The notes under the pieces were generated by a model, which ran no database searches, was not told where the DNA came from, and saw only the letters and a program-made list of their open reading frames with translations. The position numbers and the translations under genes were made by a program. Below are positions 10,742-31,788 of a DNA stretch of 64,000 nt, piece after piece. The DNA is from Natronosalvus hydrolyticus (GTDB lineage: Archaea > Halobacteriota > Halobacteria > Halobacteriales > Natrialbaceae), in the NCBI GenBank assembly GCA_025517525.1, contig JAOPJZ010000004.1, positions 215,594 to 279,593 of the forward strand, written 5' to 3'. The number at the start of each line of letters is the position of its first letter. Position 1 is the stretch's first letter.

Positions 10742-10792
10742 ACGTCATTCACCTGTTGGTTCTGCTGCTGTTGGTTCTTGTTTCGTGTCATG

Positions 10793-12353: not shown

Positions 12354-13034
12354 TCAACGCATATCGAGCAAGGCGGCCCCCAGCTCCCGCTGTAGAAGGT
12401 TTTTATCTAACAGAAATGTCGGTGTCCGTGGAAGAAGTAGACAATTTTCGCAGTAATTCGAACATTCACATGTTTCTAGCTGCATTGAAGCCTCATCGAA
12501 TACAGCACTCAAATTTTTATAAATAGGATATGAGAGACCTGCTCCACCAGGTTCATTGTCGTATACAAGAAGACGAAGATAATCGTTAAGGAGGTGTGGT
12601 TCACACTGTATCTCAATCGGATTAACGCCCAACTGTCGTGCCATGACGCTCCGAAGACTATATCCTACCGAATAAAGAGCAGCTAGACGCTCTTCTGGTG
12701 TTGTGACATCTGCATATGTCCGGAATAGTCTTTTCGACACCTGAAGTTCAAATCCATCTGTTCCGTATTGATGGCCTGCTATCGCCCGTTCGCTTCGTAC
12801 TTCTCCATCCTCTATTTTCAGGATCTCTCCGTGGGCTTCTTGGACTTTGGATGATGACTGATACGTAATCTCGACGCGAGGAACAGCACGCTGAACTCGT
12901 ATATTCTTTACAAATTTTGTGTCAATCTCTCCTGTCGTTCTTTCTTCGACTGTTTCTGATTCTCTTTTGAGCAAACTGGTATCGAACTCGTCGTCGCCAA
13001 TTAAATGCGCGAAATCATCTAATTCATCAGTCAT
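12354..13034 (-). CDS. DUF1998/MrfA zinc-binding-like protein, partner of the helicase
   Basis: This 226-residue protein matches the C-terminal module of DUF1998-containing helicases. A central segment is followed by YDNEPGGAGLSYPIYKNL and the cysteine cluster CECSNYCENC, the metal-binding signature of that region (as in MrfA, DISARM DrmB and related proteins). The open frame extends to 13079, but the ATG at 13034 overlaps the helicase stop by 8 nt (ATGACTGA), the same junction type used elsewhere in this locus, so 13034 is preferred. It is last in the leftward operon 23760-12354. Probably it acts in trans as the DNA-strand-separating zinc module that other lineages fuse to the helicase. Confidence 0.72.
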   Translation of the reverse strand: MTDELDDFAHLIGDDEFDTSLLKRESETVEERTTGEIDTKFVKNIRVQRAVPRVEITYQSSSKVQEAHGEILKIEDGEVRSERAIAGHQYGTDGFELQVSKRLFRTYADVTTPEERLAALYSVGYSLRSVMARQLGVNPIEIQCEPHLLNDYLRLLVYDNEPGGAGLSYPIYKNLSAVFDEASMQLETCECSNYCENCLLLPRTPTFLLDKNLLQRELGAALLDMR

Positions 13035-16000
13035 TGCTAACACCTCTAAGTGTGAATGGGCGTGTTCTCTTATTGCCATAAGATGGTTTCAGGATTGCAC
13101 CAAGATACTCATGGACAGGTAGTGATCGTAACGTGTCACTGCATACTGGACAGTTGGAGCTGCCCTCTGGCTGTTGGTGTAAGAATAGTAAACAAGAAGT
13201 ATTCATACAAGTATTAGCTGTATATAAGGGGTCGGAGCTTACCTGCGTATTGACAACCTCATATTTTGTACCGGCGTATGTATCAACTGCCTCAGGATAC
13301 GTCTCTCTGAGAGCTTGGCGAAGACTCTTCGATTCATAATGAAGATGTTCTGTTACCGATCCGGAGCCTTCTTGCTCACGGAACAGGACAGCGTTATCAT
13401 CAGCAGACCGATATTGAGATATGAGGCCTGCTTTAGAAAGTAGCATTGGAAGATACCCTAATTCACGACTAAGTTCAGATAGAAGCTCTTCTTGAATGAT
13501 TCTTCGTCGTTTGAGCTCTGATACTCCGTTTCCAGATTCAGAAAGACGTGAGTACAAACTGTAAAACTTGAATAAGCGGCGCGTGGTCTGTCTTTTTATA
13601 ATACCCTCGTTTTCACAGAGTGTATTTATTGCATATTCAACCTCACTTTGTGATTTCGAATTAAAAGTCGAAGTGAGATGCGATATAAGTTCTTTTTCCT
13701 TATTTTCTATTTCATCTAGTAGTGCTTCTATACTCGAATATGCTGCGTTGAGAACTGACTCAAGATCGGACTCAGTGTCGATCCGCTCGTACTCCTCATA
13801 ATTGCTGTCGGACAAATTCATAAAAGTAATCACTTCTGAGAAAAGCTGTGTCATGAACGGTGTTTCCCCAATCTCATTGATGTGGGTTGGCTTAGGATCC
13901 GCATTAAGAAATCTCCCCCCAATATCCTCGAAATAATGGCTATCAACAGCACTGTGAGGGTTTGCAACTGTAAAAACAACTGATGACCTAGATAGGTCTC
14001 GTCCTGCTCGTCCGGCACGTTGTGTATAACTTGCCTTCGTAGGTGGGATTCCAAGGTTGACGACGCAGTCGAGGCTCCCAATATCGATTCCCAGCTCTAA
14101 GGTTGTTGTGGCTGATACAACATTTATCCGCGGCGGAGAGGCTGCAAACGCCTCTTCAATGGTGTTTCTTGTATTTGGGTCAATTCCGGCTTTATGAACC
14201 GCAGAGATGAGGGGATTTGGTTCAGATTGGTAAACAACCTTTGCCCAGTGGTCCAGAGTATATGGTGGACTATATTCACCAGATTCAGGTGAGATATCTA
14301 CCTTATTTTCTCGGTCCACATCTGAAAGGTCATGGCCACAGTCTGGACAGAAGTCTCGGTCCCAGAATGGCCAGCCACCATAACAGAAGCTACAAACTTT
14401 TGCCAGCCGGTTGACCCTTAGCTTCAGAAACTGAGGACGCAGGGTAAGAATGGTTGAGACACCATCCCCATCCGATATCCGATCAACTTTGACGGTACCT
14501 TGCTTTTCAAGTGATTCGATGGTGTTCTCTATCTTCGTTTCAATATCTGGTATGGCATCGGCGTACTGTTCAATGGAGTTAGTTAGTTTCTGCTGGATTC
14601 CGTCCTTTCGGACGCTCATATTCCGGTTAAGATCCTGGTGTGGTTTAAATGCAAGAACTTTTACAATCTCGTTTGTGAGAAGGTTCTGTTCCGAATCTTG
14701 TTCAGTAAACACGCTAACAATCCCCGCATCGAAGAGTCGGCGATGCTCATCAGAATTCAATGGATTAGAAAGTCGATAGAGGTGACGGGAGAGACCAGAG
14801 TAGAGAATTTCATCTTCCAGGTAACCATATGGTTTTTCGATATAGATCCTTTTGAGTTTTGAATGAAGAACATCTTGAATAGCATCTGCTGTGTAGTGTT
14901 TTTCTTCTTCTGGTCCTTCTTCGAGGAGTGTAACGAGTAATCGCTGTGCTTCTAATGAGTAGTCCAATGCTCTCATAAGTGCGCCAATACCCTCTGCATC
15001 ACTACGTCGGTTTGAGAAACAGAGGGCTTTTCCTTCACCGAAGTCCTTGAGATCTCGCCCCAACTGTGTGAGGAGATAAGAAAGGAATGTTGTTGATTTT
15101 ATGCGCTGCTCAGATATATTATAAATCCCGGAGCAGGAACACGCCTTTCCAATCGCCCATCGGGAATCTCCGTCTGTATAGTAAAGGGTATCACACCGAG
15201 AACATGATTCAACTGGATAGAGGTTATGAGCCCGATAACCGCAGCTGTTAGAACGACTTGTGTGGAGTGACCGGCAGTCCTTACAGTAGTAGAACGTACT
15301 GAACGGTTTGAGAAAGTAGTGATGGCGGTCATACAAGATGCCTGCGAGCTTGCACCATTTGAGGATCGAATTAAACCGATTTGTTGTCTCGTCTGTCGTA
15401 CTATCAGCATAGAGAGCAGAGGTAATCTCGTCAAGAGGTGCAAAATCATCGTCCCCAAATTCTTGAAATATGGTAGATATCTCAGGCACTTCCTCCAGTA
15501 GACGATTCTCAAGCTCTTTCCGAAGATCATGACGACGTCTGAATAGCGATTCTAGAGTGTCCTCTTCCCATGTCTCTGGCTTGTTCAGATCATTGAATAT
15601 TTCTTTACCAAAGTCGGTAACATGATTTCCATCGATTATTCCTAAACGTGTTGCGATTTTTTCAACCTCTTCTGAGAGCTCGCCTTTTGCTGACAGAGAC
15701 CATCTCATGACTTCTTCAAGAGCATCATAGGGCGTAACTGCCGGCGTTGATGCTGTTGGATCGTTTGGTGTTGAAGACGTAGCAACAGCTGGTACAAAGT
15801 CGATATGATCGATATTATTCCGATCACGACGAAGTATTTCACTCGCAAATCCGACTGGATTTTCTATTGTGGCACTGGCAAGCACGATCGAAGATCCATA
15901 CCTCTCACGTAATCGTTCTATGAAATGTGACACTGCGGTACCGCTATTGCCATCCCAAACATGAGCTTCGTCAAAGACCACTAAATCAAGGGAGTCAGAT

Positions 16001-16851
16001 GAAACAAGTTGACGTGAGTCTGAGGAAAATAGACGGAACTCGTATGCTTCAGGGTTTGTGATCATAATATCTGCCCCCTTATCACCAATTGTATCACGAG
16101 TTACTCGCAAGAAGTCAATCTCCACAAAGTTACCTGAGGAGTGTGCCTCTGGATTGGGGCAAAGTAGCGATTCTGTATTTCCATCCCATTCAAGTTTTTT
16201 ATCACATTCTGGGCATTGGAGCCCGCGAATATTCTGTCCGTCGTAGAGCTCGTAGCTTCCTTGAGGTGTATCACCGTCAAATATTCCGACTGTAATCTGT
16301 TTAAATCGGTCTCGATGTTGATTCAAATAATATCCATATTCTACAAGTCGATTGAGCTGATCCGTTTCTAAAGCCTTTTGAGGATAAACAATAAGACTCT
16401 TAATATCAGTTGGTGGCTCCCCATCCGATTTATTCTGCAAAGCGACCTGAAGTGCCGGAATTAAGAAACACTCTGTTTTCCCAGTTGCAGTGGGAACAGT
16501 AAGAACAGCATCATTACCTTGGTCTGTATCCAAAGATTCGAGAATACGACGAACCGCTCGATCCTGATGGTCATAAAGGCGGCCATCATTATCACCAAAA
16601 ACTGCCGTTTGGATTGATTGTTCTAATTCAGAGGCAATACCAAAATCCGAACAGAAGGACTGCCACGTTTGAGGTGCCGACAGTGGAGGCTGTACTCTTT
16701 CGAGGAACGGACCTTTTACTTGAACTAAATCGTTAAGGAATTCATCATAATTCGTAATCGTGCTCGGATCAAGCTTTGTCAAGCCCTTATTCCACCAAAT
16801 GGTCTCCGTAGCATGTTCGATCGCTCGACGATTTAGTTCGTTTACATTCAT
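13027..16851 (-). CDS. Large SF2 DEAD/DEAH-type helicase with zinc modules (DpdJ/DUF1998 class)
   Basis: About 1274 residues from the ATG at 16851, which lies 5 nt after the upstream stop; an in-frame start at 16881 would overlap that gene. Motif I is TVPTATGKTE (about residues 118-127), motif II VVFDEAHVWDG, motif III VLASATIENP, and the second RecA domain ends in GIDIGSLDCVVNLGIPP with QRAGRAGRD. Cysteine pairs lie before motif II (CPEC...CPNPEAH), in the middle (CSFC...CPDCGHDL) and near the end (CPVC). This layout is that of Lhr/MrfA-like helicases carrying DUF1998, used in DISARM, Druantia and Dpd. As the biggest gene of the operon it is the likely DNA translocase of a restriction complex. 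Subfamily DpdJ is inferred from gene order and not proved. Confidence 0.82.
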   Translation of the reverse strand: MNVNELNRRAIEHATETIWWNKGLTKLDPSTITNYDEFLNDLVQVKGPFLERVQPPLSAPQTWQSFCSDFGIASELEQSIQTAVFGDNDGRLYDHQDRAVRRILESLDTDQGNDAVLTVPTATGKTECFLIPALQVALQNKSDGEPPTDIKSLIVYPQKALETDQLNRLVEYGYYLNQHRDRFKQITVGIFDGDTPQGSYELYDGQNIRGLQCPECDKKLEWDGNTESLLCPNPEAHSSGNFVEIDFLRVTRDTIGDKGADIMITNPEAYEFRLFSSDSRQLVSSDSLDLVVFDEAHVWDGNSGTAVSHFIERLRERYGSSIVLASATIENPVGFASEILRRDRNNIDHIDFVPAVATSSTPNDPTASTPAVTPYDALEEVMRWSLSAKGELSEEVEKIATRLGIIDGNHVTDFGKEIFNDLNKPETWEEDTLESLFRRRHDLRKELENRLLEEVPEISTIFQEFGDDDFAPLDEITSALYADSTTDETTNRFNSILKWCKLAGILYDRHHYFLKPFSTFYYCKDCRSLHTSRSNSCGYRAHNLYPVESCSRCDTLYYTDGDSRWAIGKACSCSGIYNISEQRIKSTTFLSYLLTQLGRDLKDFGEGKALCFSNRRSDAEGIGALMRALDYSLEAQRLLVTLLEEGPEEEKHYTADAIQDVLHSKLKRIYIEKPYGYLEDEILYSGLSRHLYRLSNPLNSDEHRRLFDAGIVSVFTEQDSEQNLLTNEIVKVLAFKPHQDLNRNMSVRKDGIQQKLTNSIEQYADAIPDIETKIENTIESLEKQGTVKVDRISDGDGVSTILTLRPQFLKLRVNRLAKVCSFCYGGWPFWDRDFCPDCGHDLSDVDRENKVDISPESGEYSPPYTLDHWAKVVYQSEPNPLISAVHKAGIDPNTRNTIEEAFAASPPRINVVSATTTLELGIDIGSLDCVVNLGIPPTKASYTQRAGRAGRDLSRSSVVFTVANPHSAVDSHYFEDIGGRFLNADPKPTHINEIGETPFMTQLFSEVITFMNLSDSNYEEYERIDTESDLESVLNAAYSSIEALLDEIENKEKELISHLTSTFNSKSQSEVEYAINTLCENEGIIKRQTTRRLFKFYSLYSRLSESGNGVSELKRRRIIQEELLSELSRELGYLPMLLSKAGLISQYRSADDNAVLFREQEGSGSVTEHLHYESKSLRQALRETYPEAVDTYAGTKYEVVNTQVSSDPLYTANTCMNTSCLLFLHQQPEGSSNCPVCSDTLRSLPVHEYLGAILKPSYGNKRTRPFTLRGVSND

Positions 16852-16856
16852 TATAA

Positions 16857-17714
16857 TTAGGAACTTAGATGCCTTCCACAAAGAGTTTCAAGATTATCAA
16901 CACTCTGGCTTTCAAGCCGAGTGACGTTATCCTCCTCCTCCTCGATATTTCTTTTTAGTCTTTGTAAGGTGGCGATATCGGACTCGATGTCTGACTTGGC
17001 GTCTTCAGCAGACTCTTCATCAAAGTCTTCACCAGGATTTTGAAATTCTTCTTTATATTCATTAAGTTTATCCTCTATTTCTTGTCGCCGATCGGTACTT
17101 ATGTTTTCCCAGCGAACACCACAGTGACTGCATTCTCCCCCTTGAAGGCCAATAAAGTGTATCGCCTTCTCTAACTTTTCCTTACTGTTCTTATAGATTT
17201 CTAGTGCTGTGTCTGCATCTCCACTATCGTATTCACTGAGGTCAGATTTGTATCCTGACAATTTTTCGCGTGCGTCATTAAGATCGGTACATCGATTGTA
17301 TTCCGTTGTCACGGATTCACAGTAATCCTCGAAATCTGATGTCAGCGTTTCAGGCTCATCACTCTCAATAAAGAGGACTTCCTCATCATCAAGTTTGTTG
17401 AAAATAACACGCCCTAATTCAACGTATCTGTCCTGTATTGTGTCATCAAGTTCCGAAAGTTCTGAAATCCTAGTCTCTGATTTCAGTGAATCTACGGCAC
17501 TCTCCACACGCTGAAGATACGCAGATGCTTCGCTAAGGTTATCAAGATGATCGCTTATACGATTAACATTCTCGATCGACGATGTATAATTTTCACTCAG
17601 AAGTACATCTACATCGGCGGTCTCTATATCAACATCTCCTAATGAGGTTGTCTTTGCGGTTTCTCCATCGTTTTCTCCTTCCAAGCCTACATCTGTGGTG
17701 GAATTACTACTCAT
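16857..17714 (-). CDS. Coiled-coil protein with a central zinc-type Cys pair
   Basis: The protein has 285 residues from the ATG at 17714, which overlaps the previous stop by 8 nt (ATGAGTAG). An acidic N-terminus is followed by helices with long heptad-like stretches (HLDNLSEASAYLQRVESAVDSL; ATLQRLKRNIEEEEDNVTRLES) and, near residue 200, GGECSHCGVRWENIS. The latter resembles a half zinc hook or zinc ribbon at the hinge between two coiled coils. This arrangement suggests a small SMC-like spacer or dimerisation protein. It lies between the ATPase and the helicase genes in what I take to be a Dpd-type operon (DpdI position). No enzymatic motif is seen. The sequence is markedly AT-rich. Confidence 0.65.
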   Translation of the reverse strand: MSSNSTTDVGLEGENDGETAKTTSLGDVDIETADVDVLLSENYTSSIENVNRISDHLDNLSEASAYLQRVESAVDSLKSETRISELSELDDTIQDRYVELGRVIFNKLDDEEVLFIESDEPETLTSDFEDYCESVTTEYNRCTDLNDAREKLSGYKSDLSEYDSGDADTALEIYKNSKEKLEKAIHFIGLQGGECSHCGVRWENISTDRRQEIEDKLNEYKEEFQNPGEDFDEESAEDAKSDIESDIATLQRLKRNIEEEEDNVTRLESQSVDNLETLCGRHLSS

Positions 17715-20628
17715 CTGAATCTCCTCCATTATGAATAAACGATCTTACTTTCTTCCGCTTTCTCTGTAGAGATTCAGTTTGATTATTATACTCTTCGACT
17801 TTCGTTTGTTCACTATCTTGTAATTCCTTGAGTGCGTATCGAATATCTGATTCAGTCTCATGGAATAGTGAAGGATACAGTTCATCCTCGTCCAAGTATT
17901 CTCCAGCACCCTGTGGTGGATTCTCAACTAGCCGTGAATAGAATAACGTACGATGAATATCCGAGATGTCTGAATTAGGTAGTTGCTGTATTTCATCCCA
18001 GATCATACGATCTTCTTCCAGTAATGATTGAATACGTGAATACCCATCTATATTGAAGTCACAGCGAACAGACTCCAGTTCATCTGCGACATTCGAGAGT
18101 GCTGTGATTCCGTTTAGCTCAGATTCTATCCTATCGATTTCTGAATCTTCAGTGAGGAAATAGTTAATCAGTTTCTCTGCATCTTCTAGCTCTGATAGAG
18201 CTTGATCTATATCGTCGTCTTGATGTACCCATTGGAGATCGTTTTGCATTTCTGCAATTGACTGAAGCTCTTCTAAGACTGGTTTTGGTATAGGACGTAG
18301 GTCACGAAGATCATCTATACTGCGGTCAGTCAAATAAGATATTCCACCATAATCACTATCAAAGAAAACGAAAGTGTCTTCTGTCCCTTCAATTTCTTTG
18401 AGACCTCCTGTTTCAATTAAGGATTTCAACTCGTTTCGATATTCGGAACGAATATCAAGGAGATCAATCTTCGTAACGAATCCTTGTTCTTTTATGATAT
18501 CTAAGACTTTGCTAAGTGCCTCTGCTTCAGGTAGTGTTGGTCCGTTATATTTTTTATATGTAGTAACATGAAGTTCTATAACAGATTCGTGAAGATCGCT
18601 AGTTAGACCCCAAAGGTTCTCATAAAGATCAGGAGCGAGATGATCCTCTGATAGCGTTTGGATAGCCTGTATACGCTCCACGACAGTATCATAGTCCCGG
18701 TTCTCCGCGATCCGTCCTATCGTCCATGGTTCTTGGATATCTGAAATGGATACCCGTTGAATTATATCTCCCCAAGTATAGTCGGGTGTCCACTGGCGGT
18801 GAGTAGAGATCTCTTCATTGAACCAGTCTGGATCTGCCCAATCATTCTGTGGTTTATCAGTAAAGACCAAAATCCCTGAGTCAGGATGATCACGACCATA
18901 GAGGTCTCTGATCTGATTTTCAACGTCACTATCACTGAGAGCTTCGTCCTCAAAGAGAGCAAATATGAGGTATTCTCCCTCGTATTCTTCTAGCCCGCCA
19001 CTTTCAGGTTTGAGCTTTCTAGCACGTCCCAATGATTCTTCCCTGGAAAAACTAGTTACTCCAAACCCTGGGTTTTCGATACCGGGAACTGACAATGTCG
19101 TCTGATCAGTGACGTTTGCTCGTTGAGTGCCAAACCACTCAATGACATTTATAAGGTAGTCTTCGGTCGCATATCGAAGATCATCTCTGTCTTCCTCTTC
19201 TAATTTCGTCTCGAATTCTTCAGCTTTTCGCAGATATTCATCGATCAACCGTTCGCGGGATTCTGAACTAGAGTCTGGGCTAGACGATCCAAAGTCAGGA
19301 TCCAGTAATTTGGGGTGAATCTTTAGTTCATTTTCGTCCTCAAAGATGACACGATTATCTAAGAGAGAATCACGGACATTATCTGATAACTCATCTATAT
19401 TTCTAGATCCGACTATAAGTTCCTTTGAAGCAGCAACTTCGGCCGTGCGATCGTCAGGGTCCAAGTCAGTGACTGCTTTGAAAGCAACTTTCAGACGAGC
19501 GCTTTTCATTGCCCGGTCACATTCATCATAGAGATATGCACCAATCCCTCCATACTCGTTTGATGTTGTCGCGTCGTTTGCGTACCTTTTAATTGCTGTT
19601 CCAACTCCATCTATAAGATTACCTATTAGGCCATGTGTCCTCAAGAGACTCTCCATCCATTCTACGTTCGCATCAGTAAATGGCCCATACTCCTCGTCTT
19701 GCTCATCAAGATATACATCTTGGAAGTATTCCGTTAGAAGTTCACGTAGGTTGATTAATTGATCCTGCCGACCACGGATATTGATGACATGATTTTGGTC
19801 TAAGCGGTGCTGATTACCAGCAATATCTAAAGTAATATCTCCATTTCGACGCCGCATTTGATCGAACATATCATTTCGTGTGATTGATGACACATCTGGA
19901 TGGCAGAACAGTACGAACCCGACGTACGGATTAAGATGTTTTTCAAACCACTTTAGAACGTTTTGGGCTTCTTCTTTTCGATGGCTGGGAACCATTTCGT
20001 CAAAAATAAATACAAACATATAGCCCTGATCAGCTAATTTTGAAATAACGTCACTGGGCTCTGTTTGACCATCAAATAGTCCTGCCTCTTCGGCGATCTC
20101 CCGGAATTGATCTCCTGAAATATCTGCTCCATCAGTGAAGGATGATAGTTCCTCATCCGAAAGCTGTGTACTAATTGTATCAATCAATTGTAATTTATAT
20201 TCTAAATCCGGTACATTATCAATCGAATTGAGATATTGTTTACCTTCTGACTGAATTCTTTGAAGATATTTATAAGAACTCGGGTTTGGTAGTGACTTTT
20301 GCCAAATTGGTAGAACAATCGGCACATTCTGGCGTGACTCGTTTTCGACAGGGTCTAGCTGGTCTCGAATATATCGAGTCATCGTGGTTTTCCCTGTTGC
20401 TTGGGCTCCTTCTATAATTAGAAAAAGTCCAGTGTCCGGATTACCAGCTTGTGCTTCTTCATAGAGACGATTGCTCCATTCATCCACAGCATTGATAACC
20501 TCGCTTTCAACAGTAGTTTCAACATGAACTCGATTCTCACTGCTATCATTTTCTTGCCAGTACTCTGCGAACGTTTGGTTAAACCGATTTGTATCAATCC
20601 CGAAGACTGATTCAAGCTCTTTTGACAT
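17707..20628 (-). CDS. Large P-loop ATPase of restriction operon (DpdH / BrxC-PglY-like)
   Basis: The chosen ATG at 20628 comes one base after the previous stop and gives 973 residues; the frame stays open to 20802 but that would lie inside the previous gene. Walker A is GAQATGKT (residues 74-81) after the strand LFLIIE, and Walker B is YMFVFIFDEMV. The protein goes on with helical regions and a repeated acidic, coiled-coil-rich second half. Size, early P-loop and neighbourhood with a PglZ-family gene recall BrxC/PglY of BREX and the DpdH ATPase of Dpd. Probably it is the ATP-driven recruiter or loader of the locus. The DNA is AT-rich: 16 of 60 bases are G or C at 20161-20220. Confidence 0.75.
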   Translation of the reverse strand: MSKELESVFGIDTNRFNQTFAEYWQENDSSENRVHVETTVESEVINAVDEWSNRLYEEAQAGNPDTGLFLIIEGAQATGKTTMTRYIRDQLDPVENESRQNVPIVLPIWQKSLPNPSSYKYLQRIQSEGKQYLNSIDNVPDLEYKLQLIDTISTQLSDEELSSFTDGADISGDQFREIAEEAGLFDGQTEPSDVISKLADQGYMFVFIFDEMVPSHRKEEAQNVLKWFEKHLNPYVGFVLFCHPDVSSITRNDMFDQMRRRNGDITLDIAGNQHRLDQNHVINIRGRQDQLINLRELLTEYFQDVYLDEQDEEYGPFTDANVEWMESLLRTHGLIGNLIDGVGTAIKRYANDATTSNEYGGIGAYLYDECDRAMKSARLKVAFKAVTDLDPDDRTAEVAASKELIVGSRNIDELSDNVRDSLLDNRVIFEDENELKIHPKLLDPDFGSSSPDSSSESRERLIDEYLRKAEEFETKLEEEDRDDLRYATEDYLINVIEWFGTQRANVTDQTTLSVPGIENPGFGVTSFSREESLGRARKLKPESGGLEEYEGEYLIFALFEDEALSDSDVENQIRDLYGRDHPDSGILVFTDKPQNDWADPDWFNEEISTHRQWTPDYTWGDIIQRVSISDIQEPWTIGRIAENRDYDTVVERIQAIQTLSEDHLAPDLYENLWGLTSDLHESVIELHVTTYKKYNGPTLPEAEALSKVLDIIKEQGFVTKIDLLDIRSEYRNELKSLIETGGLKEIEGTEDTFVFFDSDYGGISYLTDRSIDDLRDLRPIPKPVLEELQSIAEMQNDLQWVHQDDDIDQALSELEDAEKLINYFLTEDSEIDRIESELNGITALSNVADELESVRCDFNIDGYSRIQSLLEEDRMIWDEIQQLPNSDISDIHRTLFYSRLVENPPQGAGEYLDEDELYPSLFHETESDIRYALKELQDSEQTKVEEYNNQTESLQRKRKKVRSFIHNGGDSDE

Positions 20629-20629
20629 T

Positions 20630-21586: not shown

Positions 21587-21589
21587 GAT

Positions 21590-23760: not shown

Positions 23761-23913
23761 GCGTAGGGGCTTAGCAGGCTTTCATTCCATCAGAGCCCAG
23801 CCAGCAATGTTATCAGAATTTAATATCAAGTGGGACATCTGACAAGGTCTTGATTTGATCCTTGTTTATGATTCCCTTGATGCGGTTAAAAGAGACGAGT
23901 ACAGAGTGATCCG

Positions 23914-24387
23914 TTAGGGGTGTTCGATCATCGACGACACGGTCGCTGCCATCGAATCCGTCGTCTCCTTCCACTCCGTGAATCGCTCTTCGCCTGCTTT
24001 TGGCGGATCGATGTCGAAATCGAGTGGGTGATAGCTCATTCGGCCCAGAGACTCGGCGGCAACCTCACCGACAAACTCTGCATTCTTCCGCTTGGATGAA
24101 ACGCCGCCAGACGCTAAATCGTAGTAGTCAGTGAACAGTTGTACCACGGTCACGGTGCCTTCTACTGCTCGGGATTTGCTGAGGTGTCGAAAAATTTTCG
24201 CCGCGTTGTCCGCGGGATCGGCCCGTCGCCATTCCAGTTCGACCAAAATGTAACTGTCGTCAGCTACTCCCCCGACGTCAACGGGGGTTTCCACGATCCT
24301 ATACTCGGTTTCCCACCTATAGAACGGTAACTCCCGTTCCAATCGATCTTTCAGTCGAACGATTACATCGTCCGCAAACTCTCCCAT
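23914..24387 (-). CDS. Hypothetical protein, possible PD-(D/E)XK-like fold
   Basis: The 157-residue protein starts with a helix (FADDVIVRLKDRLEREL) and continues with strands ending in VETPVDVGGVADDS and YILVELEWRRADPADNAAKIFRHLSKS. An Asp followed 10-15 residues later by E-x-E in a hydrophobic strand is what a divergent PD-(D/E)XK nuclease would show, with the final Lys replaced. This is weak evidence, and a non-catalytic version or an unrelated fold is equally possible. The gene lies between the PglZ operon and queC, on the same strand as both, so it may belong to the modification-restriction locus. Nothing more specific can be said. Confidence 0.5.
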   Translation of the reverse strand: MGEFADDVIVRLKDRLERELPFYRWETEYRIVETPVDVGGVADDSYILVELEWRRADPADNAAKIFRHLSKSRAVEGTVTVVQLFTDYYDLASGGVSSKRKNAEFVGEVAAESLGRMSYHPLDFDIDPPKAGEERFTEWKETTDSMAATVSSMIEHP

Positions 24388-24445
24388 GGTGTGAACACTG
24401 AGACGTGACAGTTAGAGCTTCCGGCAATTGACGGCCTCTCGCCTC

Positions 24446-25150
24446 TCAGTCAATGTAGTTCGGACGCTCTCTGTACTCAATGGGATCCCTCACACCGGCT
24501 TCTTCGAAAGCTCTGAGGCGATAGGCACAGGCGTCGCACCTACCACACGCCGGTTCCTCGTCGCGGTAGCAACTCCACGTGAGATCGTAGGGTACGTTCA
24601 GGTCGAGTCCCCACTCCGTGATCTCTGTCTTCGTCCAGTCTACAAACGGGGCCATTAGATCTATCGACGTCTCTGGCTTCGTTCCGACGTCCACAACTCC
24701 CTGAAACGCGTCGAAGAATTCAGGACGGCAGTCGGGATAACCGGAGTGGTCCTCGCTGTGGGCACCGATGAAAATGGCCCTACAGTCGTTCGCCTCGGCA
24801 TACGAAGTCGCCATCGACAGGAGATTCGCATTCCGGAACGGGACGTAACTTGACGGAATCTGATCGCTGTCAAGATCCACGTCATTGACATCAAGGCTAT
24901 CGTCAGTTAGGCTGGAGGCACCGATGCGAGCTAGGTGGTCGGTCTCGATATGGAGGAAGTCGGCCACGTCTATGTGTTCGGCCAGCTGTTTGGCACACTC
25001 CGACTCTTTACCCGCCGTTTGCTGACCGTAGGTAGTGTGGAGAAAGTAAAGTTCGTACCCCCGTTTTCGCGCTTCGAACGCCGCAGTCGCGCTGTCCATA
25101 CCGCCCGATACGAGAGCTACCGCCTTCTCTGCGTTTTGTTGGTCTGTCAT
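24446..25150 (-). CDS. queC: 7-cyano-7-deazaguanine (preQ0) synthase QueC
   Basis: QueC converts 7-carboxy-7-deazaguanine to preQ0 with ATP and ammonia. The 234-residue protein has the N-type ATP pyrophosphatase loop LVSGGMDSATA near the N-terminus and the C-terminal four-cysteine zinc site C-x7-C-x2-C-x2-C (CYRDEEPACGRCDAC), both diagnostic. The length is normal for the family. It is third in the leftward queD-queE-queC operon. Haloarchaea need preQ0 for archaeosine in tRNA, but a set placed between two DNA-defence operons on an island, next to two DpdA-like genes, points to supply for DNA modification. No GTP cyclohydrolase gene is nearby, so the first precursor must come from the host. Confidence 0.92.
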   Translation of the reverse strand: MTDQQNAEKAVALVSGGMDSATAAFEARKRGYELYFLHTTYGQQTAGKESECAKQLAEHIDVADFLHIETDHLARIGASSLTDDSLDVNDVDLDSDQIPSSYVPFRNANLLSMATSYAEANDCRAIFIGAHSEDHSGYPDCRPEFFDAFQGVVDVGTKPETSIDLMAPFVDWTKTEITEWGLDLNVPYDLTWSCYRDEEPACGRCDACAYRLRAFEEAGVRDPIEYRERPNYID

Positions 25151-25172
25151 GTCGGTGATAGTGCATATATGT

Positions 25173-25955
25173 CTACGTCTCTGGTGCGTCGTTCCAAATG
25201 TCCACGTGTATCCGTGGCGTGTACCGAAATCCGTGTTCCATCGCCAGTTCAGCGGTCAGTTTTCGCGTCTCCTGGAGGCGGGACTTCGTGGCTCCCTCGG
25301 GCATTAGTAGCACGTCCGAGTCCCGTATCTTTGCGGCTGTTGTCCCTCGTATGTCGTCGATCAATCTGGTTATTTCGGACATGTCGTCTCGACTCGACAC
25401 TACGAACTTCAGCTGGGCCTGGTAGGATTCCACCAGCCGACAAATGGATTCCATATCAATGCGTCGGTCGTCGTGACGGTCGGCCCAGCTCCCGTTTCCC
25501 TTAGGGTCTTTCCGCGGGGTTGGCGTGCTGTTCGAAAGCTTCGGGCTGATACTCGCAAGGTCGATTGCAGCGTCCCGATAGATGGTTCCGTTCGTCTCAA
25601 CGGTCGTGTGATACTCTGCATCCCTGAGTCTGTCGAGTAATTCAACCGTTTTGTTGTGTATCAGCGGTTCACCGCCTGTCACCACGACGTGGTCAGCCTC
25701 CTCGTTTCGGCTGACGCGTTCGACGATGGTGTTCACATCGAGCCACGCGTGAGTCGGTTCCCAGCTCGTGTGGTACGAATCACAGAACCAACATCGAAGA
25801 TTACAGCCGCTTGTCCGGACGAACACGCTGGGCGTTCCAGCGAGTTTTCCCTCTCCCTGTAGAGAGTAGAACAGCTCGTTGACCGGCAGTGCGTCTTCGT
25901 TGGCGCTGTGCGATGAGGCATTCGTGAGATCAGTGTTGTCGGAACTAACCGGCAT
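25173..25955 (-). CDS. queE: 7-carboxy-7-deazaguanine synthase QueE (radical SAM)
   Basis: A 260-residue radical-SAM enzyme that contracts the ring of 6-carboxytetrahydropterin to form 7-carboxy-7-deazaguanine. The iron-sulfur motif reads CNLRCWFCDS (C-x3-C-x2-C), preceded by the QueE-typical FYSLQGEGKLAGTPSVFVRT and followed by HVVVTGGEPLIH. Later segments SISPKLSNSTP and QLKFVVSS also fit QueE. A 25-residue Ser/Asp-rich N-terminal extension precedes the conserved start, so a shorter start is possible. The gene lies 3 nt after the queD stop and 22 nt before queC, in one transcription unit. Confidence 0.92.
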   Translation of the reverse strand: MPVSSDNTDLTNASSHSANEDALPVNELFYSLQGEGKLAGTPSVFVRTSGCNLRCWFCDSYHTSWEPTHAWLDVNTIVERVSRNEEADHVVVTGGEPLIHNKTVELLDRLRDAEYHTTVETNGTIYRDAAIDLASISPKLSNSTPTPRKDPKGNGSWADRHDDRRIDMESICRLVESYQAQLKFVVSSRDDMSEITRLIDDIRGTTAAKIRDSDVLLMPEGATKSRLQETRKLTAELAMEHGFRYTPRIHVDIWNDAPET

Positions 25956-25958
25956 CTG

Positions 25959-26426
25959 CTACAGTATCCCTCCTGCGGCAAGCTCTCCAGTCTCACTCAC
26001 CTCAACGGTTACGTCGCTCACAGTCTCCGGAAGCTCAATTCTCAATCGCCGTTCGAGGACTAATCCCATCACCTCCGCAGTCGGCGGCTGATCTAGGACG
26101 ACGACGGCGTCGCCATCACCGCTGGCCTCAAACGCATCTACCAACGGATCTCCTCGCTCCACGAGGAACCGGTGATCCCACTCCGACAATACAGAAGTGA
26201 TGACCCCCTTGTCAACGACCCATCCATCGGCAGAGAGGGTTCCAGTCACCGATACGGTGACCTCGTAGTTGTGCCCGTGGGGACGACTGCACTTACCATC
26301 GTGATGCAATATACGATGTCCTGTGCTGAGACGGATCGGTTGATTACGACCGACATGAAGGGTACGTTCGGCCCCAGCGAGGTCTTCCGAGGAAAGAGAG
26401 TATTCTTCAGGTATGCCTTCTAGCAT
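25959..26426 (-). CDS. queD: 6-carboxytetrahydropterin synthase QueD
   Basis: A 155-residue T-fold enzyme that makes 6-carboxytetrahydropterin from dihydroneopterin triphosphate. The zinc and active-site residues are present: the first His in STGHRILHHDG, the catalytic Cys and two His in KCSRPHGHNYEV, an Asp-His pair in SEWDHRFLVERGDP, and the Glu in PPTAEVMGLVLERRL. It is the first gene of the leftward que operon; an AATTTAAGTAC element about 24 nt before the ATG could be its TATA/promoter region. The divergent transglycosylase operon starts 139 bp away, so both halves of the modification pathway can share one control region. Confidence 0.9.
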   Translation of the reverse strand: MLEGIPEEYSLSSEDLAGAERTLHVGRNQPIRLSTGHRILHHDGKCSRPHGHNYEVTVSVTGTLSADGWVVDKGVITSVLSEWDHRFLVERGDPLVDAFEASGDGDAVVVLDQPPTAEVMGLVLERRLRIELPETVSDVTVEVSETGELAAGGIL

Positions 26427-26565
26427 ACCGGGATATTATCGCCACCGTACTTAAATTTGAACCACTCGGTGGCTATGATCGAACTGATGGGAATGATTAG
26501 GTAACTGACCGTTTCGACAATGAGAAGTTAATTGAGGTCACCGACAGAGAATACATACAGATCAT

Positions 26566-28470
26566 TTGATGTCGGTATTCAGGACCCTTGAAAAGGCAAC
26601 GTACGGTCGTCGGGGTGAGATTGACACCCCTGGCGGTCGTATACAAACCCCTGCGCTTCTCCCCGTAGTGAGCATTATTGGGGGTACGACAACTAAGTCA
26701 GGCGGCATCTGGCGGTACACGCGTCGCCATCTGTTTGAGGACGAGAGCGCCCAAGGATTCATGTTTCAGGCGATGTCGTTTCTCGACTACAATCTCTCTG
26801 CAGACAACCTCGAAAACTGGCGTAAAAAACCTCTCAAACAGCATTTTGATGAGTGCGATACCGAACCTGGATTTGATCGGCCACTGTTCGTTGATTCGGG
26901 TGGGTTTAAATTGATGAACTCGAACAAATTCGGGGAATCACCGGACGAAGGCGGCAGTGAGAACGACTGGGGTATCTACACGAATCCCGAGAGCATCTTA
27001 GACCTGCAGCTCGATTACGGTGCCGATATTATTGCAACTCTAGACTTTCCGATTCCACAGAATCTGAATAGAGAGGAAACAACGGGACGGATGGAGCGGA
27101 GCATCAATAATGCGGTAGAGACGCTCCGGTTGCTCGATGAGCGTGAACTGGATAAGACCCCCTCCGTGTACGTGGCAATTCACGGTCACAACTACGAAGA
27201 CGTCAACTGGTACGTCAGCCAGTTCTTGGACCGTGCTGAGGAGTTTGACGAGGCCTTTGAAGGGTTTGCTCTCGGTTCGCTCGTCCCGCTCAGCAGTTCG
27301 CCGGACACGTTGGTAGACATTGTGCAAGGCGCGAGAGACGCAATTCCCACGAATCGTTACGACGACATCGCGCTCCACGTGTTCGGTATCAGCGGGAGGC
27401 TCTGCCCGTTGCTCTCTCTCCTCGGAGTTGATACCTTCGATTCGAGAAGCTACCAGTACGCCGCAAGGAACAAGAAGTTCATCCACCCGGAGACGTGGCG
27501 ACGGATCAGCCTCGACCAAATTGACGACTGGGACGACTGGCCGTGTGACTGTAGCGCGTGTCAGTCCATCCATCTGGACGACATGCAGCATGCTTTATTG
27601 GAGTCAGACGTCAGCAACAAGCCCATTGAGGGCCAACACGGGAAGCGTTTCAAGAGCGAGTATTACGCACAGATAGCCCACCACAACTTCGAGCTGTACA
27701 GCCGCCAGATGAGTGGAGTCCGCGACGCAATTGACGATGGCCGCCTATTGGAAAACGTCGCCGACTTTGCCTGTGGGAAAAACATCGTCGAGAAGGGACT
27801 TAAGCGAGCGCAGCTACACAACCCGGAGCTCCGGGAGCGACTCGCGGAGATTGGCTATGAAGAGCTCGTCGCTGGCCCCGATGATGAGACGTTTCAGAGC
27901 AAACTCACCAGCTTCCTGAGCGGAGTAGAGGATGCAACACGGAAGAAGCGAACCATCTCGTTGAAATACGGTCCAGGCGACTTTGACGTGCTTCAGCGCG
28001 ACGACTACCAGCCACCAAACGACGCAAAAGTACTACTCATTCTGCCGTGTAGCCAGGAAAAGCCATACTCCGAATCCCGTACCCACCAGGCAGTCCTGTC
28101 TCGGCTTGAAGGCCAGCGAAATGCTTTTCATAAAATATCTGTCTCTGGTCTTTACGGCCCGGTTCCAGAAGATTTTGAGGAAGTAGACCCAGTGATGAGT
28201 TACGAATATGTCCTAACCACGGCCGACGACGACCAAGTCGAGCTCGTCGCACATCGGCTAGCGGATTACTTGGAAGAGTACGGTGATCAATTTGACCGGG
28301 TTTTAGCTTACACGACCAACAAAGCGTACCGCCAAGCCATCGAGAAGGCGTTCGAGGAGTATGGACGAGGGGAGACGCTCCCCAGTAATCCGCGAGCGCT
28401 CCAACTCACGGAACACTTCCGAGGTGAGAATCTCGACGAATTGGTGGAAAAATTCACTAGCTCTCCGTGA
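26566..28470 (+). CDS. DpdA-like DNA transglycosylase fused to an ArcS-type (DUF5591) domain
   Basis: A 634-residue two-part protein. The N-terminal two thirds is a TGT barrel: IDTPGGRIQTPALLPVVS start, FVDSGGFK (D110), ATLDFPIP (D160, nucleophile position) and the zinc cysteines CDCSAC (C327, C329, C332). There is no PUA domain for tRNA binding, in line with DpdA-type enzymes that exchange guanine in DNA for preQ0. The C-terminal domain contains LPCSQEKPYSESRTH from residue 493, which fits the PC-x3-KPY-x2-S-x2-H motif of archaeosine synthase ArcS. That suggests the inserted preQ0 is further derivatised. First gene of a rightward four-gene operon, divergent from queD. Whether the target is DNA or RNA is inferred. 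Confidence 0.8.
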   Translation: MMSVFRTLEKATYGRRGEIDTPGGRIQTPALLPVVSIIGGTTTKSGGIWRYTRRHLFEDESAQGFMFQAMSFLDYNLSADNLENWRKKPLKQHFDECDTEPGFDRPLFVDSGGFKLMNSNKFGESPDEGGSENDWGIYTNPESILDLQLDYGADIIATLDFPIPQNLNREETTGRMERSINNAVETLRLLDERELDKTPSVYVAIHGHNYEDVNWYVSQFLDRAEEFDEAFEGFALGSLVPLSSSPDTLVDIVQGARDAIPTNRYDDIALHVFGISGRLCPLLSLLGVDTFDSRSYQYAARNKKFIHPETWRRISLDQIDDWDDWPCDCSACQSIHLDDMQHALLESDVSNKPIEGQHGKRFKSEYYAQIAHHNFELYSRQMSGVRDAIDDGRLLENVADFACGKNIVEKGLKRAQLHNPELRERLAEIGYEELVAGPDDETFQSKLTSFLSGVEDATRKKRTISLKYGPGDFDVLQRDDYQPPNDAKVLLILPCSQEKPYSESRTHQAVLSRLEGQRNAFHKISVSGLYGPVPEDFEEVDPVMSYEYVLTTADDDQVELVAHRLADYLEEYGDQFDRVLAYTTNKAYRQAIEKAFEEYGRGETLPSNPRALQLTEHFRGENLDELVEKFTSSP

Positions 28471-28546
28471 GGATACACCAGCTTGTAAGGGTAAACTCGG
28501 TTGATTATCCGAACTATTAAGGTCTCCAAGGGAGATCAGCAGGTAG

Positions 28547-29008
28547 ATGACTTCCCTGCTCGTTCAGTCCTGTTCGGCCACCAAAGAACCGGTGGAAGAG
28601 CCGGTTCAAGCCATCGAGCTGTACGATGGATACTTTTTCCGGATTATCAAGAAGGCACAGCGCTCAAACCGGGTTCAGACAGGACTCGACATAATAATTA
28701 TATCAGCAGAACATGGTGTCGTTGAGACTGATGACAAGATTGGATATTACGACAGGCGAATGGACACGGAGCGTGCGAGCGAGCTGAACGATACAGTCGT
28801 TGGAAGTATTGCAAACAAGGTGTCTGAGGCGGGGTATGATAATATATGGATCAACCTGGGTAAGGACTACCTCCCAGCAGTCGAGGGTATTGAAAGTGCC
28901 GTCAACGTTCCCGTCAATTACATCCAAGGCTCCGGAATCGGAATGAAAGGCAAGCGGCTGAAGCAGCTGGTTTCCATCGACGGAGCCGTCGCGGTAAGCG
29001 GTGACTGA
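28547..29008 (+). CDS. YaaA/DUF6884-like protein, candidate preQ0-modifying enzyme
   Basis: A 153-residue protein with an N-terminal SCSATKEPVEEP, a IIISAEHGVVETDDKIGYYDRRM segment and a late LGKDYLPAVEGI. This is the pattern of the YaaA/DUF6884 superfamily, to which the ArcS DUF5591 domain is related (compare PCSQEKPYSESRTH in the preceding gene). GGAGATC 12 nt upstream of the ATG may act as a ribosome binding site. Its stop overlaps the next start by 8 nt (GTGACTGA). DpdC, which turns preQ0 in DNA into 7-amido-7-deazaguanine, is the functional counterpart I would test first. The homology to DpdC itself is not shown. Confidence 0.62.
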   Translation: MTSLLVQSCSATKEPVEEPVQAIELYDGYFFRIIKKAQRSNRVQTGLDIIIISAEHGVVETDDKIGYYDRRMDTERASELNDTVVGSIANKVSEAGYDNIWINLGKDYLPAVEGIESAVNVPVNYIQGSGIGMKGKRLKQLVSIDGAVAVSGD

Positions 29009-30260
29009 CGATATGGTGTCGTTCAACGTACATGCTGAGGCGGGCGAAGCGCGTTGCGGTACGCTTCAAATAAATGACCGCAGCCTCGAAACCCCTCACC
29101 TGTTTCCAGTGGTGAACTTCTACGCAGGAGGAAACGAGGGCTCTCTGTTCGGCGGCGGGATCCATCGCACGATAAAAGAGTTCATGGTCAACCACCCGCC
29201 CGTGGTGGGGGAACAGAACTACAGTGACCTGTTCCCGGGGGTAATGACTTCCATTTCTTCCCTGGCAGACTACGGTATCTCGGAGGAAAAACTAGAGTGG
29301 TATCTACACAATAAAATTCGAGAATGGGAGAGTTTCAGTGACTACAATGGCGTGATATTCGCTGATTCTGGGGGCTATAAAATACTCACTCAGGGAGGGA
29401 TACAGGGAAGGGACTTTGAGAAAGATATTGATCAAGACAAGGCTCTGGACATCCAGCTCGCGCTGGGTCCGGATATTTTCGTCAATCTGGATCATCCAAT
29501 CCATCCCGACGACGAGTTCGAAGATCGAATCGAAAAAATGAAACAGACTGCGGTGAACGCCCGACTGTTCGCTGAGCGGAGAGACGAGATCGACGGCGCA
29601 TGTTACCTCACCGTTCACGGCTACTACGAGGCGATGCTGGAGCGATCTTTTGATCTTATTGAAGAGGAGCTTGCGGAGCCGATACCGAAGGTATTCGACG
29701 GGGTTGCGCTAGGCAGCCTTGTCCCACGAAAGGACAATGTCGAGGTGCTCGTGGAGGCCGTCTCCGACTGCAAGCGCGAAATGCAACAGCGAGGTTACGA
29801 GGATCTACCACTTCACGTTCTCGGAATTTCGGGTAATGCAATGCCGTTACTTGTCGCCCTCGGGGCCGACTCCTTCGATTCTGCTTCGTACCTACACCAA
29901 GCGATAAACGGGAAATATTACGTCAACTTATTCGAGTCCGTACCGGTTGATGAGGCTGATTTCGACGCCTGTCAGTGCCGGATCTGTAATGACGACTTCC
30001 ATCGTGCGCGAATGCGTGACCGGATGGAAGATCTTTATCAAAAGGACATTCTCGGTTCGGTCGCGGCGCACAACCTGGCGGTTCAACAGCGAGAACTTCG
30101 CAAGTTCCGTCAGCTGATTGTTGATGGAAACGAGCAAGCGGTTGCGACTTACCTGGAAGAGTCTGTGAAGGATCAGAAAGGTTTCCGTAAGTTCGTCTAC
30201 AAACTAATTAACGAACGAATGAATCCCTACTTTGAGGAGACTGATACAACCTATGCATAA
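29001..30260 (+). CDS. Second DpdA-like transglycosylase
   Basis: A 419-residue TGT-fold protein that begins with GTG at 29001, overlapping the previous stop by 8 nt; an ATG at 29013 is the alternative. Key residues: FADSGGYK (D122), VNLDHPIHPDDE (D164, nucleophile position) and the zinc cysteines CQCRIC (C324, C326, C329), with a downstream SVAAHNL supplying the His. It has no PUA and no ArcS-type domain. Both paralogues keep their catalytic aspartates, so they could act on different sequence contexts or strands, or as a heterodimer as in eukaryotic QTRT1/QTRT2, although in that pair one subunit has lost catalysis. Operon context is as for the neighbouring gene. Confidence 0.8.
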   Translation: MTDDMVSFNVHAEAGEARCGTLQINDRSLETPHLFPVVNFYAGGNEGSLFGGGIHRTIKEFMVNHPPVVGEQNYSDLFPGVMTSISSLADYGISEEKLEWYLHNKIREWESFSDYNGVIFADSGGYKILTQGGIQGRDFEKDIDQDKALDIQLALGPDIFVNLDHPIHPDDEFEDRIEKMKQTAVNARLFAERRDEIDGACYLTVHGYYEAMLERSFDLIEEELAEPIPKVFDGVALGSLVPRKDNVEVLVEAVSDCKREMQQRGYEDLPLHVLGISGNAMPLLVALGADSFDSASYLHQAINGKYYVNLFESVPVDEADFDACQCRICNDDFHRARMRDRMEDLYQKDILGSVAAHNLAVQQRELRKFRQLIVDGNEQAVATYLEESVKDQKGFRKFVYKLINERMNPYFEETDTTYA

Positions 30261-31788
30261 GACACCACAAGTCAACGAGGTCAACGAGTTTATCGAGATA
30301 GCGAGCGACTTTGAGGATCCGCTGGAAGTCATCAGAGAAGCTCTATCGAACTCCTACGACGCAAACGCTACGAGAGTAGATATCGAGATTACGCAAGACG
30401 ATGAAGGGCGGAATACACTCACCATCGATGACGATGGTGATGGAATGTGCGAGCGGGACTTATCTTCGTTCTTTGATCTCGGAAACTCAAGGAAACATGA
30501 CGCGATTGGATACAAGGGACACGGGACGAAAATCTATTACAAGAGCGACGAAATTCGAGTCGAGGCAGTCAAGGACGGTACACGGATCGAATCATTGATG
30601 GAACGACCGTGGGAGACGCTGAACGACCGCGAACTTCCCATGTACTCGGTCGAGAAGACTGAAACCGACGAGTCATCGGGTACCCGAATTGAGGTTCACG
30701 GATTCCGTGCAGGTCGAGGTTTCGATCCACAGAAACTTACTTATAACAAGATTGAACACTACATCAAGTGGAAAACAATTGGTGGATCAACCGCCTGGTA
30801 CTTCGACGACGACTTCCATGAAATGGAAATAACCATTGAGCTATCAGATACCATCGACGACACGCGTCCCCCAATAAAGACTACCAACCGACTGAAATTT
30901 GGACCCGAAAACAGGGACCCTGAAGGTGAGTTCGTAGCTGAAAGAATGTGTAAGTGTTACCCACCCAGAGAGCTGTCCGTTACTCTTGACGACGGCCAAG
31001 AGGCATTGATCGAAGTTGTTGGAATGGTGGGTGGAAAGGAAGCGCGAAATGAGCTACCGACGTACGGAAAACACTCTGCACAGTTCGGAGTCTGGCTTGC
31101 CAAAGATCACATCAAGGTTGAGAGATATAACGACGCCATCGGAGCCGACAATGAGTTCTTCCACTTCTTTTTTGTAGCTAACTGCCAGGATATCGAACTC
31201 TCTGCAAATCGGGAAAAGATACGGAACAAGTCTGGCAACGTCTACCAGGCGATAACGGACGAGTTAGATCGATTCTTCACCAAGGTATGTCAAGACCCAT
31301 GGTATCAAGATTATATCGAACGTCGAAAGCTAGAGAACAAAATGCAGAGTGTGCAGTCTCAGGCGAGCTCGCTTGATGATCGACGGGAACGTGCGGAAGA
31401 ACAGGGAGGGCTTTCACCATCAAATTCCGCTGAAGTGGTCGCCATGTTGGAACGATACAGTGCCAACGGTGCTCCAGAGTCATTCAAAATTGCGGACTTT
31501 CAGTTGAATGACGAAGTGAACACGATCCTTGAGACGGAAAACGGGTTTGATAATGCCTCAATAGAAGTCAAGCTGAGTGACTTCTTTAAGGATGAACCGC
31601 CTTTGACTCATATTGACAGATTCGTTTGCTGGAAACTCGGTGATATTGATGCACTCAGCCAGCTTGAACGGACGCCTTACATGGATGAAACCATCCGATT
31701 CGATTTTTCCGATAACGAAATTAAGTATGGGGAAGACGATCCGAGGACGATTCCCATTCTCGAACTTTCCTCAAAGATCTCACCGTAG
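30253..31788 (+). CDS. Hsp90/MORC-like GHKL ATPase
   Basis: The ATG at 30253 overlaps the previous stop by 8 nt (ATGCATAA), so I prefer it to the one at 30232; the protein has 511 residues. The Bergerat fold is clear: VIREALSNSYDANATRV (N box), IDDDGDGMCERDL (D-x-G-x-G) and IGYKGHGTKIYYKS (G2 box). An S5-like middle domain follows (VWLAKDHIKVERYNDAIG; CQDIELSANREKIRNKS), as in MORC and Hsp90-like ATPases. The C-terminal 130 residues are unassigned. MORC-like ATPases act as ATP-gated DNA clamps, so it may help the transglycosylases or police unmodified DNA. A ParB-like DpdB, the partner in bacterial Dpd, is missing, and this ATPase occupies that place. Confidence 0.78.
   Translation: MHKTPQVNEVNEFIEIASDFEDPLEVIREALSNSYDANATRVDIEITQDDEGRNTLTIDDDGDGMCERDLSSFFDLGNSRKHDAIGYKGHGTKIYYKSDEIRVEAVKDGTRIESLMERPWETLNDRELPMYSVEKTETDESSGTRIEVHGFRAGRGFDPQKLTYNKIEHYIKWKTIGGSTAWYFDDDFHEMEITIELSDTIDDTRPPIKTTNRLKFGPENRDPEGEFVAERMCKCYPPRELSVTLDDGQEALIEVVGMVGGKEARNELPTYGKHSAQFGVWLAKDHIKVERYNDAIGADNEFFHFFFVANCQDIELSANREKIRNKSGNVYQAITDELDRFFTKVCQDPWYQDYIERRKLENKMQSVQSQASSLDDRRERAEEQGGLSPSNSAEVVAMLERYSANGAPESFKIADFQLNDEVNTILETENGFDNASIEVKLSDFFKDEPPLTHIDRFVCWKLGDIDALSQLERTPYMDETIRFDFSDNEIKYGEDDPRTIPILELSSKISP

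Follow-up and report, generated by a model that had tools for sequence, protein, structure and literature searches.

A PglZ-like gene arm beside a predicted 7-deazaguanine DNA-marking core in a haloarchaeon

Why does a haloarchaeon carry genes for making a 7-deazaguanine next to genes that resemble the restriction machinery of BREX, and would the two act together? We addressed this question for an island at positions 12354-31788 of our window, by which we mean the whole 64,000-nucleotide stretch of Natronosalvus hydrolyticus DNA that was analysed. The island holds 14 genes in three blocks: a PglZ arm, a preQ0 block, and a TGT core (Table 1). It is a real assembly rather than a product of chance. 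Our main reading, which we consider fairly likely, is that it is a host modification-restriction island, in which QueD, QueE, QueC, and two TGT proteins are predicted to mark the cell's own DNA and the PglZ arm is predicted to attack DNA that is unmarked. Both the marking of the DNA and its restriction are predicted from sequence.

The arm (PglZ-like protein, 318-aa protein, ATPase, Cys-containing coiled-coil protein, helicase, and MZB protein) is read leftward with intergenic gaps of -53 to +3 bp, and it therefore very likely forms one operon. It is separated by 269 bp from the preQ0 block (23914-26426), which is also leftward and consists of a 157-aa gene, QueC, QueE, and QueD. The core (26566-31788; TGT1, DUF6884, TGT2, and GHKL ATPase) is read rightward. 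The arm has a G+C content of 43%, the preQ0 block 56%, the core 51%, and the right flank 58%. All open reading frames named in a preliminary description of this DNA were found in place.

Table 1 Genes of the island, with positions in the window
Feature	Position	Strand	Evidence or remark
MZB (DUF1998-type) helicase partner	12354..13079	-	PF09369 E 1.8e-11
YprA/DruE/DpdJ-like SF2 helicase	13027..16881	-	DEAD + Helicase_C (Pfam)
Cys-containing coiled-coil protein	16857..17729	-	Pfam: no family
ORC/Cdc6-type, BrxC-like AAA+ ATPase, 973 aa	17707..20628	-	ORF open from 20802
318-aa winged-helix protein, SspB/DUF4007/BrxA-like	20630..21586	-	
PglZ-like protein, predicted nuclease/phosphatase	21590..23644	-	PADLOC PglZ E 1.1e-6
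157-aa protein	23914..24387	-	conserved PxD...ELEWRR
QueC	24446..25150	-	PF06508 E 5e-72
QueE (radical SAM)	25173..25955	-	PF04055 E 5e-16; sits between QueC and QueD
QueD (PTPS family)	25959..26426	-	PF01242 E 3e-18
TGT1, TGT + DUF5591 (ArcS core) fusion	26566..28470	+	PF01702 E 1e-28; PF17884 E 4e-19
DUF6884, DpdC/YaaA-like	28547..29008	+	PF21818 E 2e-12; PADLOC DpdC E 1.6e-4
TGT2, stand-alone TGT, weakly DpdA-like	29001..30260	+	PF01702 E 1e-27
GHKL (MutL/MORC-like) ATPase	30232..31788	+	HATPase_c_3 PF13589 E 2e-12

Pfam scans agreed with the earlier reading of a queD-queE-queC operon, with QueC, a radical SAM protein at the QueE position, and a PTPS-family QueD. The 157-aa gene adjoins queC and was found beside cores in six genomes of our neighbourhood set, the window included. 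No family was found for its product in our scans; its conserved motif resembles that of PD-(D/E)xK nucleases, and the protein is possibly such a nuclease. The two TGT proteins had been described as PUA-less, and neither gave a PUA match in the Pfam scan. The C-terminal DUF5591 domain of TGT1 had been overlooked. In TGT1, D110, D160, and D292 together with an ArcS-type CSxxKPY motif are invariant in 32 of 32 relatives; its zinc cysteines are not invariant among them. TGT2, which aligns with a solved archaeosine TGT structure, keeps D122, D164, D293, and C324/C326/C329/H357 in all 27 of its relatives; these residues would serve in general base catalysis, substrate binding, nucleophilic attack, and zinc binding. 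The protein first described as YaaA-like matched DUF6884, with the YaaA family itself below its cut-off (E 0.0023), and the supposed Hsp90/MORC-like ATPase was recovered by HATPase_c_3. The nucleotide-binding motifs of this GHKL ATPase are invariant (27/27). Its gene lies 3' of the DUF6884 and TGT2 genes on the same strand at all 27 loci with this trio, regardless of the arm, and from this linkage we infer that the ATPase serves the marking step. DpdB gave no match in PADLOC or NCBIfam scans of the island.

Whether such a core would act on DNA needs to be considered with caution, since TGT and ArcS families act on tRNA. The best NCBIfam TGT models for TGT1 and TGT2 are those of tRNA TGTs, and NCBIfam DpdA reached 26 bits against a cut-off of 200 for TGT2 and did not match TGT1. 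These results would suit a core that modifies RNA (tRNA or rRNA) rather than DNA. However, the same genome has a TgtA-like gene on contig C14, a second QueC on C45, and on C7 a longer gene matching TGT in part, which we read as ArcS or ArcS-like; with these paralogues elsewhere, the island appears to exist in addition to the tRNA pathway. The lack of a PUA match in both TGT proteins and the strong tie of the core to helicase and nuclease defence genes also argue against an RNA target, which we regard as quite improbable.

The proteins of the arm were compared with BREX families. The proposed PglZ-family protein has a PglZ-type C-terminus in PADLOC; Pfam's own PglZ model had no match in the window. 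We assigned the protein to PglZ because of the PADLOC match, a weak PorX match (E 0.038), and conserved residues (D458, D551, SDHG 588-591, and HGG 667-669), which are invariant in 4/4 PglZ-arm genomes. Elsewhere in the same genome (L001, G000:C56), the Pfam PglZ model matched above its cut-off (38 bits), so that the strain probably has another PglZ protein. The model of the 318-aa protein aligns with SspB/DUF4007 across most of its length, the SspB score being tied in Z with many small winged-helix proteins, and BrxA itself was absent among the matches listed. The ATPase model is ORC/Cdc6-like, with BrxC among its matches and DUF6079 absent among the families listed. The likenesses to PglZ and BrxC are remote. 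The locus had been called PglZ/BREX-like before these models were available, and their SspB-like and BrxC-like folds suggest a likeness to BREX that exceeds what could then be seen.

The ATPase most likely starts at 20628, since its relative in genome G259 begins there. In two cousin loci (G026 and G131) the ATPases are longer (1254/1256 aa), and the extra C-terminal part matches the Cys-containing protein of the window. The DUF1998-class helicase and its MZB-like partner were recovered as a DEAD helicase nearest the DpdJ and DruE models (PADLOC DpdJ 117 bits, DruE 114 bits; NCBIfam DpdJ 106 bits, the cut-off being 800) and a separate MZB protein, which aligns with the C-terminal part of a one-piece 1578-aa helicase of other core loci. 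A YprA-type helicase is split into two genes at the window. Neither a methyltransferase nor a PAPS reductase was matched by Pfam among the 14 island proteins.

Our island was compared with known systems that share parts of it. BRIGADE (Bell et al., bioRxiv 2025; PMC12458937) comprises haloarchaeal predicted deazaguanine systems and resembles our island in its occurrence in halophilic archaea only, its predicted 7-deazaguanine cluster, and its YprA-type helicase. Such a cluster is present in the window as QueD/E/C and TGT genes. According to that paper, BRIGADE of both types usually has two YprA-like helicases, whereas the window has one. A PLD or PD-(D/E)xK nuclease also lies near BRIGADE; Pfam gave no PLD match among the scanned island proteins, and the 157-aa protein has a motif resembling that of PD-(D/E)xK nucleases. 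The PglZ/SspB-like/ORC-type set also sets the island apart, and the word PglZ is absent from the BRIGADE main text as far as it was accessible. BREX-Related Capture (BRC; Rakesh and Krishnan, NAR 2026; PMC12839542) combines PglZ and TGT with a HerA translocase. As described there, it has PglZ, as does the island, and in a subset a TGT; its BrxC-type ATPase and its DUF4007/BrxA-like protein may correspond to the ATPase and the 318-aa protein of the window. HerA/FtsK is universal in BRC, and a DpdC homologue is missing. In place of HerA/FtsK, of which the Pfam scan found none there, the arm of the window has a YprA-type helicase; its core genes also differ from BRC, with QueDEC, the ArcS-type fusion, DUF6884, and the GHKL ATPase.

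Bacterial Dpd shares a TGT homologue, QueC/D/E, a weakly DpdC-like protein, and a DpdJ-like helicase with the island, but the DpdA and DpdJ scores of the window are far under the NCBIfam cut-offs, and the PglZ arm is foreign to Dpd. BREX (including the phosphorothioate Type 4) and SSP are alike in PglZ, a BrxC-type ATPase, and a BrxA/SspB-type fold. BREX, however, has a BrxX/PglX methyltransferase, or phosphorothioate genes in Type 4, of which none was matched in the island; Type 4 is a precedent for another mark replacing the methylase (PMC12839542). Because one defining feature of BRIGADE and one of BRC are missing, we call the island a new variant, and its gene content would link the two systems without falling fully under the definition of either. 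A literature search for the combination gave the papers cited here as the only relevant results, and some of our genomes may be in their supplements. The preliminary description had spoken of a possibly undescribed archaeal branch; this is only partly true, given that BRIGADE and BRC already describe haloarchaeal deazaguanine and PglZ-plus-TGT systems.

With regard to distribution, the PglZ-like protein was found in 4 of 391 class genomes and the arm ATPase in the same four out of 392 order genomes, a search that is not independent of the class sample. The arm ATPase gave 23 proteins in a search of 5.8 billion proteins (best 7992 candidates scored), and a genome contig search gave two arm loci, both among the four. 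All four have TGT and QueC/D/E no more than about 10 kb away from the arm, and the window's kind of core is present in two (the window and G259). The cousins G026 and G131 have TGT, a protein in which matches to TGT and DUF6884 are combined (the former being below cut-off in G026), and FolE with QueDEC; the que operon of the window lacks folE. In the cousins, the run of genes that holds the TGTs contains, in place of the GHKL ATPase, a BrxC/BrxD-like ATPase. A GNAT identity for the cousins' 287/298-aa proteins was dropped, as they have no Pfam family and are helix-turn-helix-like by eye only.

TGT1 passed E 1e-25 in 43 of 391 class genomes, 38 of them TGT1-grade and five with a weaker TGT match. 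Our neighbourhoods covered 32 of the 38 core loci, namely those of the window and G259 and 30 others in stretches no longer than 40 kb; the core genomes outside this set are G054, G098, G133, G194, G354, and G357. The DUF6884-TGT2-GHKL trio was present in 27/32 of these loci, and QueD, QueE, and QueC together in 13/32, one with QueE split into two ORFs.

These counts bear on the possibility that two independent defence systems adjoin here, such that the PglZ arm needs no mark and the core is BRIGADE-like with its own arm lost. Seen from the core, arm and core are mostly apart, an outcome that the preliminary description had named as one part of what would refute its proposal: 36 of 38 core genomes have no PglZ arm, and TGT1 and the arm are marginally associated (p 0.049, 391 genomes). 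The difference in G+C between arm and core is also consistent with independence. Seen from the arm, they are together in 4/4 genomes, two of which have a different TGT set. Furthermore, no BRIGADE-type arm protein was found in any of the four, and there was no second helicase of those families in the window or G259, where DpdJ-like and 1578-aa queries match only one split helicase in G000 and in G259 (E 1e-10). We consider independence unlikely. The Dpd-type core with a PglZ/ATPase/helicase arm, as first proposed, thus fits the sequence, the TGT and QueC paralogues elsewhere, and the co-occurrence seen from the arm, and it does so less well from the side of the core.

Although joined in the window, arm and core differ in their relatives. 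DNA homology of the window to G378, which has a BRIGADE-type arm, covers 23983-31764, and that to G165 covers 23956-31764 (both 73%). It stops at the 157-aa gene, which marks a module edge: in G378 and G165 the BRIGADE-type arm ends beside this gene, at the position that PglZ takes in the window. With G259, most of the arm is homologous at the DNA level (12415-21691). The window's core proteins share 72-84% identity with their G378 counterparts and 41-53% with those of G259, and its arm proteins share 47-68% with those of G259. A tree built from the four core proteins in concatenation (27 genomes with all four genes, quick search, LG+G4; arm labels of G361 and G267 from a genome-wide match and not from the neighbourhood stretch) rejects the window and G259 cores as a clade (AU p 4e-54). 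The break in DNA homology and the cores not being sisters indicate separate histories for arm and core. The core tree does not give the direction of exchange, i.e., whether core or arm moved.

Which arms, then, accompany the core elsewhere? Within the 32 core stretches, a recurrent cassette comprises a helicase of the 1578-aa type (19 loci, not counting those with PglZ), an ATPase of 973 aa (19), 309-aa and 279-aa proteins (18 loci each), and a 231-aa protein (16). DpdJ-like helicases and small PLD proteins occur with it in fewer loci. In the one set scanned, cassette representatives reached 180 bits for DpdJ and E 3e-11 for PADLOC DpdK, both under NCBIfam cut-offs; for each of the labels DpdJ-like, DpdK-like, and third arm, one or two representatives were scanned. 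The 973-aa arm protein was found at 200 bits or more in 29/391 genomes, with three more weak matches, and 26 of the 29 carry TGT1 (Fisher p 3e-28, which is not strict because the genomes are related). Accordingly, 26/38 core genomes have this Dpd/ARMADA-like arm rather than the PglZ arm. By description alone, it fits BRIGADE Type I (PMC12458937). It was never found together with the PglZ arm (0/4 PglZ-arm genomes). Two likenesses between arms were dropped: the window's ATPase aligned with the 973-aa ATPase of the BRIGADE-type arm in a 40-column Walker A region only (probability 31), and the PglZ-like protein with the 932-aa phosphodiesterase of a third arm at a probability of 24.

This third arm lies beside the core in G294, G070, and G147 (L052:2619-11623, with relatives in G070 and G147) and has a PF01663 phosphodiesterase, an AAA ATPase, and a HerA-like protein; two of its genes are in G056. 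It resembles BRC and is possibly a BRC-type system. A GmrSD-type (Type IV) restriction gene lies near the core in G340 (L074:4186-6675) and G153, both without a BRIGADE-type arm. The 973-aa protein is missing from 12 core genomes, of which two have the PglZ arm (the window and G259) and two a DpdJ-like helicase (G002 and G237). The other eight, which include the third-arm and GmrSD loci, have no DpdJ-like helicase and a single weak match to the 1578-aa helicase (G056, 44 bits). Gene content thus suggests that the core may serve as an interchangeable self-mark for at least three arms: PglZ, Dpd/ARMADA-like (BRIGADE-type), and HerA-phosphodiesterase-ATPase (BRC-like). A bolder form of this idea is a portable haloarchaeal 7-deazaguanine 'password' (TGT/ArcS-type fusion, DUF6884, TGT2, GHKL ATPase, often QueDEC) for at least three unrelated restriction arms, one BREX-like, swapped as cassettes at one slot; we find the case for it evenly balanced. 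If true, base hypermodification would underlie a restriction platform general to archaea, in which the GHKL ATPase is the loader that enables TGT to act on double-stranded DNA.

Under our main reading of a host modification-restriction island, QueD/E/C would make preQ0 from the product of the host's FolE, and TGT2 would exchange guanine for preQ0 in double-stranded DNA, for which the GHKL ATPase may be a DNA-opening clamp. A clamp-type, DNA-opening role has been proposed for DpdB of bacterial Dpd (PMC12839542). The nitrile would next be changed by the ArcS-type domain of TGT1 and by DUF6884, either into an adduct of the lysine or archaeosine type or into the amide. The SspB/BrxA-like winged-helix protein would assemble with the ORC/BrxC-type ATPase on DNA that is unmarked, along which the YprA-type helicase and its MZB partner would travel, and PglZ would nick or cut this DNA. 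Counting against this reading are the remote PglZ and BrxC likenesses, the variable zinc cysteines of TGT1, and the folE missing from the que operon. The roles could also be reversed in a Type IV-like manner, with the arm attacking 7-deazaguanine viral DNA and the core regulating or mimicking. Haloviruses with such DNA exist (HVTV-1), and preQ0/G+ pathway genes are reported in all Druskaviridae (PMC6884629, PMC8651126); the GmrSD-type genes near two cores would also be in line with this. A host that makes the mark would, however, suffer from its own arm, and the core retains its full set of mark-making residues, so we hold this view to be highly improbable.

Restriction systems are usually classed by mark or effector, and here one predicted core is found with different effectors in close relatives. 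The PglZ/BrxC-like/SspB-like arm is elsewhere paired with methylation or phosphorothioation. If the mark is confirmed, these loci would be a natural experiment that asks what is read by effectors of the PglZ type, in that a similar arm is combined with a third self-mark of different chemistry. Confirmation would also predict archaea with hypermodified guanine in their own DNA and could bear on the fate of 7-deazaguanine haloviruses in such archaea. The GHKL ATPase is a candidate for how TGT reaches double-stranded DNA.

A viral origin of the island was not favoured, as single-protein scans, which reach close relatives only, found no relatives of TGT2 or the arm ATPase in viral contigs and none of TGT1 in phages. 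Among plasmids, TGT1 was found in three records, one a fragment, and the arm ATPase was not found.

Next to the GHKL ATPase gene, HerA-like, NurA-like, Rad50-like, and Mre11-like (metallophosphoesterase) genes occupy 31908-39546 of the window on the minus strand. Genes 31-40% identical to these lie about 10 kb from the core in G259. We set this cassette aside as a part of the system because NurA, the one searched, is near-universal (377/391 class genomes) and two PglZ-arm genomes, G131 and G026, have no such cassette in their 60-kb stretches. To the left of the arm, two small genes (window 10001-11583) have relatives that adjoin cores in G259 and G165, beyond the far side of the core in the latter, and one of them is also near cores in G378 and G294; they may belong to a mobile element or a toxin-antitoxin system that recurs in such neighbourhoods. 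In G259, a 391-aa protein that matches VRR-NUC weakly, with a score below the cut-off, is encoded between the core and the PglZ arm (L016:6736-7911). A GIY-YIG nuclease gene recurs near cores (L061:15398-15922, with relatives in G082, G086, G136, and G147), and in most of its loci it adjoins the GHKL ATPase gene.
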